From: Synechococcus sp. ROS8604
GTDB lineage: Bacteria; Cyanobacteriota; Cyanobacteriia; PCC-6307; Cyanobiaceae
Reading direction: 5' to 3'
Assembly: GCF_014279655.1 (NCBI RefSeq)
Contig: NZ_CP047946.1
Coordinates: forward strand, 1,302,001-1,366,000
Length of the DNA: 64,000 nt
The position numbers and the translations under genes are program-made. Each line of letters starts with the position of its first letter. The first letter of the stretch is position 1. Under the pieces are notes generated by a model, which had not been told where the DNA came from, ran no database searches, and was given only the letters and a program-made list of their open reading frames with translations. This document shows, one piece after another, positions 7,679 through 24,532 of the stretch.

Positions 7679-8609
7679 TTCGTCGCAAATGGCTCCCAAA
7701 GGTCTGTCTTTGCTTCTTGAAGCCTTGGGTTGGTCCGATCCCGAGCGCTGGTGGGGCCATTGGCAGCAACGCGGTGGTTTTGATCTTGCCAGTTGCGTCT
7801 GGCCCGAGAACGTGAACGATGAATGGCTGCTGGGTGTGGCGTTTCCATTGCTCTCGCAGGTAGAGAGCCTCATGGGGATGGGTGGTCGTCCCCTGCTCGG
7901 ACTGAGCGCTCTTCCTGGATGCGGAAAAACCACCCTTTGCGATTGGCTTGTGCAAGCCAGTTCCGAATTGGGATGGTCGATCGCGTCTCTTTCAATCGAT
8001 GATTTTTATTGGCCTGGTCCAGAGCTTGATCGACGGATGGCAGGAAATCCCTGGGGTGTGCCCAGGGGAATACCAGGTAGTCACGATCTGGAGTTGATGG
8101 CCGTAGCTCTCGATCAGTGGCGAGAGACAGGGATATTGAACGCCCCTCGCTTTGATAAATCCCTCCGTCAAGGTCGAGGGGATCGCAGTGAATGGGTTCG
8201 CTCCACTCCTGATTTAGTAGTGCTGGAGGGATGGTTCGTGGGCGTTTGCGTGCCTGATGAGATTTGTTCCGCTCAGAACTTGCACTCGCTTGAGCTCACA
8301 AGCGAAGAGATGCTGTATCGCGAGCGGCTCATTCGGCTCATCCCTGACTATGCACCGATCTGGAATCGAATCGATAAGATTTGGCACCTCAAATCCCAAA
8401 GCGGTACTTCGAGCCGGCTTTGGAAGCGACAGCAGGTGGAGACCCAAGCCAGGACCACCGGTGTTCAAGTGTCTGAATCCGCTGTCCAAGATTTTGTTCG
8501 GATGATTGAAACGGCATTTCCAGCACCTTGGTTGCAGGATCTGCATCAATCTGATGTTGTGATCGATCTCACAAACCAACGCGCTGTTCGTGAGATCACC
8601 TTGAAATGA
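7614..8609 (+). CDS. D-glycerate 3-kinase
   Basis: A P-loop kinase of about 331 residues: Walker A GLSALPGCGKTTL, then LSIDDFYWPG, NPWGVPRGIPGSHD, RFDKSLRQGRGDRS and the conserved VVLEGWFVGV. These motifs belong to the plant/cyanobacterial GLYK type, related to uridine kinases. The enzyme phosphorylates D-glycerate to 3-phosphoglycerate, the last step of photorespiratory glycolate salvage. The longest frame starts with TTG at 7614 inside ycf20; an ATG at 7689, 11 bp after the ycf20 stop, gives a protein 25 residues shorter and may be the true start. It follows CbbY-like and ycf20 genes and converges with rpmF. Confidence 0.85.
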   Translation: MTTSALDAFFRSFLRPTSLVPDSSQMAPKGLSLLLEALGWSDPERWWGHWQQRGGFDLASCVWPENVNDEWLLGVAFPLLSQVESLMGMGGRPLLGLSALPGCGKTTLCDWLVQASSELGWSIASLSIDDFYWPGPELDRRMAGNPWGVPRGIPGSHDLELMAVALDQWRETGILNAPRFDKSLRQGRGDRSEWVRSTPDLVVLEGWFVGVCVPDEICSAQNLHSLELTSEEMLYRERLIRLIPDYAPIWNRIDKIWHLKSQSGTSSRLWKRQQVETQARTTGVQVSESAVQDFVRMIETAFPAPWLQDLHQSDVVIDLTNQRAVREITLK

Positions 8610-21583: not shown

Positions 21584-21611
21584 GCCCCGCCACGAGCGGG
21601 GTTTTTTATTG
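21584..21611 (+). terminator. Intrinsic terminator, island type, copy 1
   Basis: The sequence has a 6-bp stem CCCCGC/GCGGGG with loop CACGA, followed by TTTTTTATTG. All 28 bases are identical to the terminator at 24505-24532. It closes whatever transcript precedes the island and sits 12 bp before the first CRP-like palindrome. Confidence 0.85.
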
Positions 21612-21623
21612 CTTTGAAGCAGC

Positions 21624-21639
21624 TGTGAGCAAGATCACA
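21624..21639. promoter_or_regulatory. CRP-type palindrome, copy 1
   Basis: TGTGAGCAAGATCACA matches the CRP-family consensus TGTGA-N6-TCACA exactly. It lies 107 bp upstream of the ATG of the broken gene at 21731. The same 16 bp occur at 24175, also 107 bp before a start codon. Marine Synechococcus have CRP-family regulators (for example PtrA); which one would bind is unknown. Confidence 0.6.
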
Positions 21640-21717
21640 GAGCCGCTTGACGGTGGTCATCACCTCAGCCATTGATTCCGGAGATGGTGTGTTCATCGAG
21701 AGGGAACAACCCTCCAC
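21624..21717 (+). repeat. Duplicated upstream element, copy 1
   Basis: About 94 bp match 24175-24266 with only scattered differences and a small indel. Shared blocks include the CRP-like palindrome, GTGGTCATCACCTCAGCC and GGAGATGGTGTGTTCATCG, then a G-rich run facing CCTCCAC that could form a hairpin in the leader RNA. It is a duplicated promoter plus 5' leader rather than coding sequence. Confidence 0.85.
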
Positions 21718-21730
21718 TGCTACTTAAATC

Positions 21731-22230
21731 ATGCCTCACTATACAGATTGGGTTACAACGTTTAAGGCCAATATCTGTCCTCAAAATCAACCTGAGACCA
21801 TCATCCTGCCTACCGACGGGGATGACATCCTCGTTGTTACACCTGATACCGGCGACGACATCATTGGCCTGGATGTAGGTCCAGTGAACAAGCCAGCTTA
21901 AAAAGGTTGGTGGACAGTTGACGGTGCTAATTTCCGTGCCACTCATGAGGATTCTTTAACCGAATGTGGCCATTCCATGGACATCTGGACGAATGGAGGC
22001 GCATCAACGTATTGCACTGGCTATTGCCTTGTGGATTCCTCTAACCCTGATGGTTCGACCTATGTGATTCGACCTATGTGAGGGAAACTTTCGAACCAGC
22101 TGCTGGGATGAATCGCTTTGGTGAATCCTTCAACCCTGTTCTTGGAGAAAGATCAAATTGGGGTGAAATTTGTGATGTTGGGCTATCGCCCAGGCGAGCA
22201 GAGGTGATGCCCAGCTTTGCGATTGTCTGA
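21731..22230 (+). pseudogene. Broken gene of unknown function (in-frame stop plus 14-bp duplication)
   Basis: Starting at ATG 21731 the frame reads 56 codons (MPHYTDWVTTFKANICPQN...) to a TAA at 21899. The same frame then continues without a gap as KGWWTVDGANFRATHEDS...TECGHSMDIWTNGG to 22081. There the 14-bp unit TTCGACCTATGTGA is repeated in tandem (22054-22067 and 22068-22081), shifting the frame by two. Skipping one copy restores a frame that runs as YVRETFEPAAGMNRFGES... to the TGA at 22230. The ancestral protein would be about 160 residues, soluble, with several cysteines. I do not recognise it. It follows the duplicated promoter element and is followed by a terminator at 22275. Confidence 0.75.
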
Positions 22231-22271
22231 ACAATAATGGTTGATCTACTGAGCTAAACCGTTTGAATGCA

Positions 22272-22519
22272 ATGCCCCGCCAATCGGTGGGGTTTTTTTA
22301 TAGCTACCAATCTTTAGAGGACGCTCAATCAGCTGCTAATGCTGCCGTTGCTAAAAATGGTCGATTTGTGATTTCTTCTGATGGCATCTCATTATCCAAC
22401 CTGTTCCATCAACTGACTTCTCTGAACTTAAAAATCAACTGAATGGGGGAAAGCGCCGTGTTTTATACCCCCCGTTTGAGGGATTTGGATACAGGTTGTT
22501 ACATCTACTCTTTGCGTAG
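22272..22519 (+). pseudogene. Frameshifted gene remnant
   Basis: One frame gives SYQSLEDAQSAANAAVAKNG followed by RFVISSDGI before losing sense; a second frame, open from 22382, continues with QPVPSTDFSELKNQLNGG, KRRVLYPPFEGFGYRLLHL and a stop at 22517-22519. Together they read as one small protein split by a frameshift near 22380. The only ATG (22272) falls inside the terminator hairpin, so the true 5' end is missing or replaced. The family is not recognised. The Coq4-like gene begins 15 bp after the stop. Confidence 0.5.
22275..22299 (+). terminator. Intrinsic terminator, island type
   Basis: The stem CCCCGCC/GGTGGGG has one G-T pair, the loop is AATC, and a run of seven T follows. It resembles the 21584 and 24505 terminators and closes the broken gene at 21731-22230. 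Confidence 0.8.
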
Positions 22520-22534
22520 GAGTTTCATCAACAG

Positions 22535-23251
22535 ATGTCAGAACAGCAACACTACGTGCGGTCATCATTTTCTAAAAGTGCTACAAAGTTAGCGGTTTCC
22601 ATTTTGCAAACAGCAAAGCAACCTGAAAAAATTTTTCAACACGGCAGATATTTTGCAATCCCAGGACAAACTAAACTGGAGAAAGATTGTATTGAAAGAG
22701 TTCTAGCCACCCCAAAAGTTCAGGAGCTACTCGCCAACCGACCTTCACCACTATGGCCAGATCTGGAGCAAATGGCTGCTATGCCTAAAGGAAGTCTTGG
22801 TTGGTGCGTGCATCGCCGCCTGGAGAAACTTGGGATTTCTTTTTTAGTTGATCAATCGCTGATATCAGAATGCCAAACTGATGAAGAATTCGCGATAACC
22901 AGATTTATACGTTTGCATGAGATTCACCACACGATCCTCGGTCTTCCGATCACAGTCGCAGGTGAAGCTGCTGCGACGGCGTTTTATGCAAGCACTGGAT
23001 CAAGCCCCTATCACATCGGAGTTCTTTCATCATGGATGCTCCGCGGTGCCTACGAACCAAATGAGCGCAGGCTGATCTGGGATGCAATCGGTTTCGGCAT
23101 TGCAGTTGGCCAGGAGGTTACTGAACTTTTCTCCCCTCGTTGGGAAGATGGCTGGGAACGACCGATCATCGATTGGCAGAACGAATTGGGTATCGCCAAG
23201 CTGCTGATGACATCTCCGTTCCAGGAGGACTTGGAAGACATCTATGCCTAA
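22535..23251 (+). CDS. Coq4-family protein
   Basis: The 238-residue soluble protein resembles COQ4: the central segment RLHEIHHTILGLPITVAGE has the metal-binding pattern of histidines followed at a distance by a glutamate, and is preceded by GSLGWCVHRRLEKLG and followed by a helical region with ERRLIWDAIGFGIAVGQEV. In other organisms COQ4 works in ubiquinone synthesis, where it has been linked to removal of the ring C1 carboxyl group. Cyanobacteria make plastoquinone, not ubiquinone, so a different substrate is likely. The stop codon abuts the ATG of a 39-residue double-glycine peptide (TAAATG), which suggests that the two act together. The sequence is intact, unlike its upstream neighbours. 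Confidence 0.78.
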   Translation: MSEQQHYVRSSFSKSATKLAVSILQTAKQPEKIFQHGRYFAIPGQTKLEKDCIERVLATPKVQELLANRPSPLWPDLEQMAAMPKGSLGWCVHRRLEKLGISFLVDQSLISECQTDEEFAITRFIRLHEIHHTILGLPITVAGEAAATAFYASTGSSPYHIGVLSSWMLRGAYEPNERRLIWDAIGFGIAVGQEVTELFSPRWEDGWERPIIDWQNELGIAKLLMTSPFQEDLEDIYA

Positions 23252-23371
23252 ATGTTCCGATTACGCCATTTCACTAGGGCTCAAGATGAGATTTCAGAGC
23301 AAGAGCTGGAAGGTGTGGCTGGTGGTGGATTCAACTGGCTCATTGGAGGTACGCTAGTCAGGATGAGCTAG
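23252..23371 (+). CDS. Short peptide with double-glycine leader
   Basis: A 39-codon frame starts at the base after the Coq4-like stop. The N-terminal part ends DEISEQELEGVAGG, which matches the double-glycine leaders of Nif11/NHLP-type ribosomal peptides and class II bacteriocins (acidic residues, L at -7, GG at -2/-1). The predicted core after GG is only 14 residues: GFNWLIGGTLVRMS. It has no cysteine and just one threonine and one serine, so lanthionine-type modification is unlikely; an unmodified or truncated peptide is possible. Such leaders are cut and exported by a C39-peptidase ABC transporter, which is not in this window. The frame is short, but leader and placement support it. Confidence 0.62.
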   Translation: MFRLRHFTRAQDEISEQELEGVAGGGFNWLIGGTLVRMS

Positions 23372-23409
23372 TTCAACAAAGGATCTGAACATTTCCGATA
23401 ACATGAGTC

Positions 23410-23856
23410 ATGGGCATATTCACTAATAAGATGGATTGGAAGTCCAGGAAAGGCAAGACGGTTATTTTCTTGCTGTCTCTAAGCGTGATTGTTCCAATTA
23501 TTGGCAAAGTCGTTCATCGCTATTCTTCCTCAAAACCAACGGTCTATTCCTCGCTTGAGAAAGCAGAGGCTGCATGTACTTGGTGGAGGCAGACTGGTAA
23601 TGTTCATGAATCAATATCCTGGGATAATGCTCGACATGCTCTTGGTCTCTTTGAAGGTCAAGGAAGTTGTGATTTTGTAAATCCCTCTCTTACGAGGAGA
23701 TACCCCATGAATGGGAAGAACCTCGTCCTCTCCCGTGTTTGTGTTAACGACAAAGCCAATAATACAATTATAGGAAGGAGAAATAAAGCATTAGAAAGTA
23801 GTAAGTGGATTAAATGGAAGAACGAAGGTACTTATGAGATGGTTGCAACATTTTGA
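23410..23856 (+). CDS. Hypothetical protein with N-terminal membrane anchor
   Basis: The 148-residue product has a basic start (KMDWKSRKGK), one hydrophobic helix (TVIFLLSLSVIVPIIGKVV) and a soluble outside domain with paired cysteines (AACTWWRQTG, GSCDFVNPS, SRVCVNDKAN). Base composition is clearly more AT-rich than the core genes. No family is recognised. It follows the double-glycine peptide by 38 bp on the same strand and could belong to the same transcript; immunity or export accessory function would be speculation. Confidence 0.55.
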   Translation: MGIFTNKMDWKSRKGKTVIFLLSLSVIVPIIGKVVHRYSSSKPTVYSSLEKAEAACTWWRQTGNVHESISWDNARHALGLFEGQGSCDFVNPSLTRRYPMNGKNLVLSRVCVNDKANNTIIGRRNKALESSKWIKWKNEGTYEMVATF

Positions 23857-24174
23857 TATTGATTCATTGAATGATATCTTGCTAAATGCTTGCCCCTAAA
23901 TGCACCACACAACCCAATGTCCGTTGCTGGGTGTGGTTCAAGGGCAACCCTCTAAAGCATGAGGGGTGTTGGAAGGGGGGGGATGGAGCTCTCTCTGTTT
24001 TGGGGGGGATCCGTATCGAGCACTTGGACGCTTTTACTTGCCGTTTCCCCAGTGGAAGCTGGTCTTCACGGAACCAGCAGACATGGAAAACCCTCCATCC
24101 ATTCCCGAAGGCGAACGATGGAAGCTCTACCCAAGTGAACTGAAGTAGCTCACGGTGTAATGACGTAATGCCCC
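23857..24174 (+). other. Gap with two poly-G tracts and a doubtful frame
   Basis: Runs of eight G (23975-23982) and seven G (24002-24008) lie 19 bp apart. A GTG-initiated frame at 23966-24148 (60 codons) crosses both runs and ends with protein-like sequence (RFYLPFPQWKLVFTEP, SIPEGERWKLYPSELK). A second frame from 23886 covers the upstream part. This looks like a decayed or phase-variable gene; no family is recognised. Confidence 0.35.
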
Positions 24175-24190
24175 TGTGAGCAAGATCACA
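24175..24190. promoter_or_regulatory. CRP-type palindrome, copy 2
   Basis: TGTGAGCAAGATCACA is identical to the site at 21624 and lies 107 bp before the ATG of the 64-residue double-glycine peptide. Confidence 0.6.
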
Positions 24191-24266
24191 GCACCGCTTG
24201 ATCGTGGTCATCACCTCAGCCTTTGATTCAGGAGATGGTGTGTTCATCGGGGGGAAACACCTCCAC
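24175..24266 (+). repeat. Duplicated upstream element, copy 2
   Basis: This is the partner of 21624-21717. The run GGGGGG (24249-24254) faces CCTCC (24260-24264) across AAACA and could close a short hairpin. The two copies now drive different downstream sequences, so the element, not the gene, was duplicated or kept. Confidence 0.85.
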
Positions 24267-24281
24267 AACACCTTCAAACCA

Positions 24282-24476
24282 ATGACCAACATCGAACTCA
24301 CTCTTGATCAACTCACTGCCCTTGCTGGTGGCGTGCAAATGGGACCTAATGGGGAAACTTGCACTGACCGTTTTACCTGGAAAGACATCCAGGACATCTT
24401 TGGTGGTGGCAAGGGCATTGTTCATCCTGAGTTCCGACTCAGCGGTAGTGAAGGACCTGGTGGTACGAGCTTCTGA
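24282..24476 (+). CDS. Bacteriocin-like precursor with double-glycine leader
   Basis: A 64-residue peptide beginning MTNIELTLDQLTALAGG. The leader shows the class II/microcin pattern: hydrophobics at -12, -7 and -4 (L, L, L) and Gly-Gly at the cut site. The 47-residue core is glycine-rich, with one cysteine (ETCTDRFTW), an aromatic/charged segment (WKDIQDIFGGGKG) and a GSEGPGGTSF end. Export with leader removal by a C39-type ABC transporter is expected from the family; none lies here. The gene has its own duplicated promoter element with a CRP-type site and a strong terminator 28 bp after its stop, so it is a self-contained transcription unit. No Shine-Dalgarno sequence is obvious before the ATG. 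Confidence 0.72.
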   Translation: MTNIELTLDQLTALAGGVQMGPNGETCTDRFTWKDIQDIFGGGKGIVHPEFRLSGSEGPGGTSF

Positions 24477-24504: not shown

Positions 24505-24532
24505 GCCCCGCCACGAGCGGGGTTTTTTATTG
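24505..24532 (+). terminator. Intrinsic terminator, island type, copy 2
   Basis: Identical to 21584-21611: stem CCCCGC/GCGGGG, loop CACGA and T run. It ends the transcript of the double-glycine peptide. Confidence 0.9.

Follow-up and report, generated by a model that had tools for sequence, protein, structure and literature searches.

The closest described counterparts of the element examined here are the cAMP-CRP regulons of the Escherichia coli type, in which the cyclic AMP (cAMP) receptor protein CRP reads TGTGA through R180, E181 and R185, the cAMP pocket comprises G71, E72, R82, S83, T127 and S128, and -41.5 is the position of a class II CRP site. The window (the whole stretch of 64,000 nucleotides from Synechococcus sp. 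ROS8604 that we analysed) carries two copies of an element beginning with the pattern TGTGA-N6-TCACA, and comparison with related genomes shows further likenesses to class II and tandem CRP promoters, namely a dyad that would be centred at -41.5 from the predicted transcript start and a regulator that combines a cyclic nucleotide monophosphate (cNMP)-binding domain with a Crp-type helix-turn-helix (HTH) and keeps R180, E181 and R185. Unlike at E. coli-type CRP promoters, however, a predicted promoter and hairpin leader of ~100 bp is conserved here as a unit before many unrelated genes, many of them for products predicted to be exported, and unlike in E. coli CRP, T127 and S128 of the cAMP pocket are changed in the picocyanobacterial regulator. 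Taken together, we consider it likely that the element is a CRP-dependent promoter-leader of a secretome regulon in relatives of this strain, and that the window copies are orphaned, with neither the regulator nor a PF00211 cyclase found in the strain itself.

Parts of this picture have precedents. According to the relevant passage of Xu and Su 2009 (PMC2633013), 17 cyanobacterial genomes have no CRP orthologue and 13 of the 17 have unexplained CRP-like intergenic sites, for which another CRP/FNR member was suggested; WH8102, WH7803, CC9902 and RCC307 are counted there as crp-less and without site signal. What we add to that study is a link between a particular promoter unit and a CRP orthologue that has a cyclase nearby. 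Adenylate cyclases near CRP also occur in the genomic-island module Syn_GI122 (Dore et al. 2020, PMC7522525), for which the passage describing it names no target promoter or regulon. Likewise, the passages of papers on ribosomally synthesized and post-translationally modified peptides (RiPPs) and double-glycine peptides that bear on the window peptide (Wang et al. 2011, PMC3140520; PMC8120280) do not mention a shared promoter, and a passage of the cyanobacterial RiPP literature cites changed prochlorosin expression in MIT9313 with a heterotroph. Among open-licence papers, a search turned up neither a title nor an abstract dealing with this promoter or regulon.

A genus-wide element before diverse genes

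The initial annotation described a near-identical ~93-bp duplication in which each copy opens with an exact palindrome 107 bp before an ATG, and the sequence bears this out. The copies at 21624-21717 and 24175-24266 share 90% ungapped identity over 86 nt (21623-21708 versus 24174-24259), both begin with TGTGAGCAAGATCACA, an exact TGTGA-N6-TCACA palindrome, and the palindrome-to-ATG distance is 107 bp in each, with the ATGs at 21731 (copy 1) and 24282 (copy 2). The palindrome by itself is mildly unusual and is weak evidence: the window contains three exact sites, and the seven sites found with at most one mismatch compare with a shuffled mean of 2.37, 3 of 100 shuffles reaching seven. Chance can hardly account for the 86-nt repeat, nor for its recurrence elsewhere.

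Further copies are numerous across the genus and the family, with some in the strain's own genome too, and many stand ahead of short double-glycine open reading frames (ORFs), the finding that the same annotation had asked for. The genome of the window (G000 in our numbering; 2.88 Mb on one contig) has four additional copies by blastn (E<1e-7), one of which precedes a 29-aa frame (MKNSELTLDQFTTISGG...) that is a shortened relative of the window peptide. Across the genus, blastn gave matches at E<=0.001 in 24 of 31 genomes. A sequence-only profile (R1), aligned from 58 of 66 candidate copies after omission of eight judged decayed or odd, gave 276 matches in 30 of the 31 genomes at E<=0.01, with 0-37 per genome and E-values that are rough. 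In the family, scanned in genomes at least 90% complete with this single-genus model and 15 candidates scored per genome, 50 of 271 genomes match at E<=0.001, spread over 11 of 34 genera, and 31 genomes, some of them from other picocyanobacterial genera, match at <=1e-10, a line for a "strong" element that was drawn after the results had been seen. An exact-pattern scan of named genomes, which catches about half of the known copies (37/72), returned 34 stretches, 27 of them in Synechococcus or Prochlorococcus and seven scattered elsewhere, about three of the latter being expected by chance by our estimate. The copies are thus not a local pair but a genus-wide element, with a predicted role as promoter and short 5' leader.

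The genes behind the element are diverse. Of the two in the window, one had been called broken and the other a double-glycine peptide, and both descriptions hold: the frame behind copy 1 stops at 21901, beyond which an intact relative can still be aligned in frame (68% identity over 19 aa), and the copy 2 peptide has an ELTLDQL...GG leader and passes the cut-off of the CCRG-2 RiPP model for double-glycine bacteriocin precursors (NF033456; 25.3 bits versus a cut-off of 24). We take CCRG to stand for "co-culture responsive genes" (with Alteromonas). Among 105 of the 113 non-redundant downstream proteins (eight were omitted as broken, very short or doubtful), NCBIfam matches at E<=0.001 comprise CCRG-2 RiPP (18), an RTX hemolysin model (16), type IV pilin (2), class IIb bacteriocin (2) and Nif11 leader (1); the corresponding Pfam matches are RTX repeats (14), N_methyl (2), Nif11 (1) and calpain-type protease (1). 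Individual copies precede a 622-aa vanadium bromoperoxidase-like protein (G007, L221:300-2165; best E 4.9e-123) and, in the case of a weaker copy with a perfect palindrome, a Nif11-leader peptide of the prochlorosin type (G013, L080). We took class counts from the family scans because a crude motif script, which called 77 of 119 unique proteins export-like or MPH-family, left 42 of the 119 unclassified. For many of the targets, namely CCRG-2 peptides and others of the double-glycine kind, RTX proteins, pilins and Sec-signal-like proteins, export is likely, a prediction that applies to the group rather than to each protein.

Architecture of the predicted promoter and leader

We examined the arrangement of conserved positions in 90 non-redundant copies from 32 genomes, drawn from 137 parsed copies that are themselves part of all matches, with offsets counted from the first palindrome base as 0. 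TGTGA stands at offset 0 in 72 of the 90 and TCACA at offset 11 in 81, both half sites being perfect in 65. A second dyad, TGA-N6-TCA, occurs at offset 24 in 66 copies, and just once elsewhere between 17 and 60. The hexamer at 59-64 reads GATGGT in 69 copies, 89 copies keep both its position 2 (A60) and its position 6 (T64), and CA is found at 70-71 in 68. If A71 were the transcript start, the hexamer would lie at -12 to -7, the second dyad would be centred at -41.5 and the palindrome at -63.5. The 58 aligned copies run through 96 columns without gaps, which is partly expected of sequences collected by homology. This architecture fits a tandem CRP promoter followed by a hairpin leader, the start being placed from the conserved pattern, and the base-specific conservation at fixed spacing looks like that of an old, selected promoter.

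The leader hairpin finds support in the covariation of its arms. In 65 representative copies, arms folded with their own partner gave -7.9 kcal/mol versus -6.4 kcal/mol with swapped partners (permutation p 0.0002), and the same test on three control regions showed no difference between own and swapped arms. Another RNA hairpin, GATG/CATC within the conserved block, had been seen by eye and was set aside when variant copies were found to break its pairing without compensation. At the gathering score, Rfam recognised one tRNA in the whole window and no family on the element; weak Trp_leader and isrJ matches, below cut-off, overlap terminator-like stretches, and an explanation by a known Rfam family was dropped.

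A CRP orthologue and cyclase that often accompany the element

Searches for the CRP family returned a protein that we take to be NtcA and, in many genomes, one further protein (NtcA, speA, gatB, ndk and thiO are tentative gene names). The further protein, hereafter the regulator, was found at E<1e-90 in 20 of the 31 genus genomes, with fragments in G020. In G024 it adjoins speA, and the genes for a DUF3307 protein, a cNMP-binding protein and a CHASE2-cyclase come after it. The domains of the G024 regulator are those of a cNMP-binding protein with a Crp-type HTH (PF00027, 7.4e-20; PF13545, 3.5e-09; PF00325, 5.2e-05). Aligned to E. coli K-12 CRP, the orthologues of G024, G126 and G299 keep R180, E181 and R185, all 14 rows of the regulator alignment carry the RETASR stretch unchanged, and G71, E72, R82 and S83 of the cAMP pocket are kept. 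A PF00211 cyclase is present in 19 of the 20 regulator-bearing genus genomes versus 4 of the 11 others; in 17 of the 20 the two genes share a contig and are no more than 10 kb apart, in G029 and G030 the cyclase is on other contigs, and in G019 it is missing. Separately, an unusually strong cyclase domain (205 bits, in a 381-aa frame) was seen in G006 at C3:163633-164160, a genome in which we found no CRP orthologue. We do not claim autoregulation of the regulator, since 10 of 14 regulator loci lack any exact palindrome; among the four that have one, the array examined in G001 consists of element copies before other genes.

The element and the regulator co-occur in the family and within the genus. 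In the family, with the regulator called at E<=1e-30 and Fisher p values uncorrected for kinship, the regulator is present in 27 of 31 strong-element genomes versus 30 of 240 others (p 2e-17), and in 37 of the 50 genomes that match the element at all versus 20 of 221 that do not (p 2e-20), a count that is independent of where the line for a strong element is drawn. Within the genus, 24 genomes at least 90% complete divide into 16 with both, one with the regulator and no strong element, three with the strong element only and four with neither (p 0.014). The genus of G217, which we infer to be Prochlorococcus-like, offers a particularly clear case: the element occurs in two of 41 genomes (17 copies in G217, one in G299) and the regulator in the same two (p 0.0012), the matches to element and regulator in G299 being ~76 bp apart. 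These results support the view that in the relatives of our strain one CRP orthologue tracks the element across genomes. The earlier proposal of a single CRP-family regulator is therefore supported for the relatives and unsupported for the window's own strain, where neither the orthologue nor a PF00211 cyclase was found and E181 is kept by none of the four CRP-family proteins aligned.

We propose the following sequence of events for strains that carry the whole system. A membrane cyclase, of the CHASE2 type in G024, would make cAMP; the cAMP-bound CRP orthologue would then bind the palindrome (centre ~-63.5) and the weaker dyad (centre ~-41.5) and activate a poor -10, GATGGT, in a cAMP-dependent manner. 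Transcription would start close to the conserved CA, giving an RNA with a small hairpin ahead of the start codon, and the targets would be diverse genes, many for products that are likely exported.

Probable orphan copies in the window's strain and competing readings

The genome of the window, a single contig, yielded no CRP orthologue and no PF00211 cyclase, other cyclase classes not having been searched for. In it, speA is followed after 123 bp by a Coq4-like gene, the CRP-cyclase island of G024 is missing between the two, and the syntenic place gave no match to five island genes at E<=0.01. The CRP orthologue and the cAMP-making cyclase that a CRP regulon calls for were thus, within the scope of these searches, not found in the window's own strain, and with the island missing its element copies would be orphans; we suggest that the absence reflects a loss. 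Consistent with this, of the nine profile matches in this genome, seven were read and only two precede a frame of at least 60 aa, versus 91 of 110 in regulator-bearing genomes (p 0.004). The two are L218, with a degraded palindrome, and copy 2, which is the top match of the genus scan but is itself among the model sequences. A general decay in all regulator-less genomes was considered and rejected (15/21 versus 91/110; p 0.23, non-significant), and the decay is a feature of this strain rather than a general law.

Several observations weigh against an orphaned CRP promoter. The main doubt is that both window palindromes are still perfect, which is odd for orphans unless the loss or the arrival of the copies was a recent event or the sites are bound by another protein. 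The regulator went undetected in four strong-element genomes (G000, G006, G027 and G124) and in 13 of the 50 genomes that have an element match of any strength, and in the regulator-less genomes other than G000, 13 of 14 copies precede a frame of at least 60 aa (G006 7/8, G027 2/2, G124 4/4). Conversely, G003 has the regulator and a single weak element match, and 30 regulator-bearing genomes, mostly with more distant orthologues, lack a strong element as judged by the single-genus model and its 15 scored candidates. The cyclase occurs without the regulator in G002 and the regulator without the cyclase in G019, T127 and S128 of the pocket are replaced by L and N, GATGGT is a poor -10, and the fixed spacing partly follows from the collection of copies by homology.

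Some of these points would be expected if NtcA, PtrA or a further CRP-family paralogue, common to all these strains, read the promoter and the window copies were still active, an alternative that we regard as unlikely. It gains from the perfect palindromes that remain in a genome without a detected CRP orthologue, from the intact frames behind 13 of the 14 copies in the other regulator-less genomes, and from the presence in G000 of four other CRP-family proteins above the PF13545 cut-off. The reading of CRP-like sites by non-CRP superfamily members in crp-less cyanobacteria has moreover been proposed in a passage of Xu and Su 2009 (PMC2633013), and PtrA is described in part of PMC9948718 as a CRP-type gene of WH8102 that acts in phosphate stress. 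However, when the four G000 proteins were aligned, E181 was kept in none of them, genus genomes with the CRP orthologue have more element copies than those without (17 versus 7; Mann-Whitney p 0.01), and the pattern in G217 and G299 tracks the orthologue and not a universal factor.

The initial annotation had also suggested a mobile or recombining cassette. In its full form, a MITE-like (miniature inverted-repeat transposable element) or array unit whose spread, and not regulation, explains the copies, with the palindrome as a structural end, we judge this quite unlikely. What stands is that the element precedes many unrelated genes and occurs in arrays duplicated together with a gene: array L046 of G024 (C1:2279388-2283951), at 8-13 kb from the CRP gene, holds six copies, of which five are spaced exactly 870 bp apart, and the copies that were read stand before repeated Sec-signal-like protein genes; G001 has a further array ~6 kb or less from the regulator gene. 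Five consecutive T stand between -45 and -5 in 20 of 90 copies versus 4.9% of control stretches, and an identical 28-nt terminator-like sequence recurs on both sides of the window unit, its exact 18-nt core being confined in the window to these two places. Base-specific conservation at fixed spacing, which is promoter-like, and the covarying hairpin speak against the cassette, and no inverted repeats of at least 20 nt were found to bound the element in the window (shorter repeats and transposase genes were not searched for). The exact pattern also had no match on the viral contigs scanned, a set that did not extend to annotated phage and plasmid record collections, and a phage origin of the element was dropped on this ground. 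Finally, it is very improbable that the element acts mainly as RNA, as a riboswitch-like or translational cis-regulatory leader with an incidental palindrome: covariation does exist in the hairpin, which lies past the conserved block and ahead of the ATG, but no Rfam family was recognised at gathering threshold, nearby weak matches falling below the cut-off, and among the strongest columns are those of the palindrome and the GATGGT block, spaced as protein-DNA contacts would be.

Table 1 Features of the two element copies and their surroundings in the window
Feature	Position	Strand	Basis or remark
Terminator-like 28-nt repeat, GCCCCGCCACGAGCGGGG plus T run, 5' of copy 1	21584..21611	+	Direct repeat, 100% identical to 24505-24532
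Copy 1 palindrome, TGTGAGCAAGATCACA, predicted distal CRP site	21624..21639	+	Exact CRP-type match
Copy 1 second dyad, TGA-N6-TCA, predicted proximal CRP-like site	21648..21659	+	Centre 22 bp 3' of that of the first dyad
Copy 1 GATGGT, predicted -10	21683..21688	+	Putative role; predicted transcript start A21695
Copy 1 leader hairpin, GAGGG-AACAA-CCCTC	21700..21714	+	Predicted fold and arm covariation among copies
Broken gene behind copy 1, 56-aa frame	21731..21901	+	Relative of an MPH-starting G006 protein
Copy 2 palindrome, exact CRP-type	24175..24190	+	Pattern match and repeat alignment
Copy 2 second dyad, TGA-N6-TCA	24199..24210	+	Sequence reading and shared architecture
Copy 2 GATGGT, predicted -10	24234..24239	+	Putative role; predicted transcript start A24246
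Copy 2 leader hairpin, GGGGG / CCTCC	24249..24264	+	Predicted fold and arm covariation among copies
64-aa double-glycine peptide, CCRG-2 family RiPP	24282..24476	+	NCBIfam NF033456 match
Terminator-like 28-nt repeat, 3' of the copy 2 gene	24505..24532	+	Direct repeat of 21584-21611

Other features of the window touch on these subjects. Between the two copies, positions 22535-23251 encode a 238-aa Coq4-family protein (PF05019, 1.7e-11); in relatives, a Coq4-like gene also flanks the place of the regulator island. The adjacent 39-aa ORF at 23252-23371 has a GGG stretch and resembles a small double-glycine peptide, with a score below the NCBIfam cut-offs. The third exact palindrome, at 8558-8573, lies within a 331-aa open frame and is probably coding sequence; an identical 16-mer occurs at 13288 in L108.

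A broader and more tentative proposal is that marine picocyanobacteria have a one-switch secretome. Through a standard promoter-hairpin unit, a CRP-cyclase island would govern scattered genes for peptides, RTX proteins, pilins and enzymes, numbering up to dozens. Regulator and promoter would pass jointly from lineage to lineage, as the two of 41 Prochlorococcus-like genomes may illustrate; the same switch would drive CCRG-2 peptides, and strains that lose the island, as ours would have done, would be left with orphaned promoters. Across marine strains, our results tie together a CRP orthologue, a usually nearby cyclase and a large set of candidate targets, among them functionally uncharacterised peptide families with a presumed action between cells. 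If the proposal is true, the strain of the window would be a natural knock-out of this switch.

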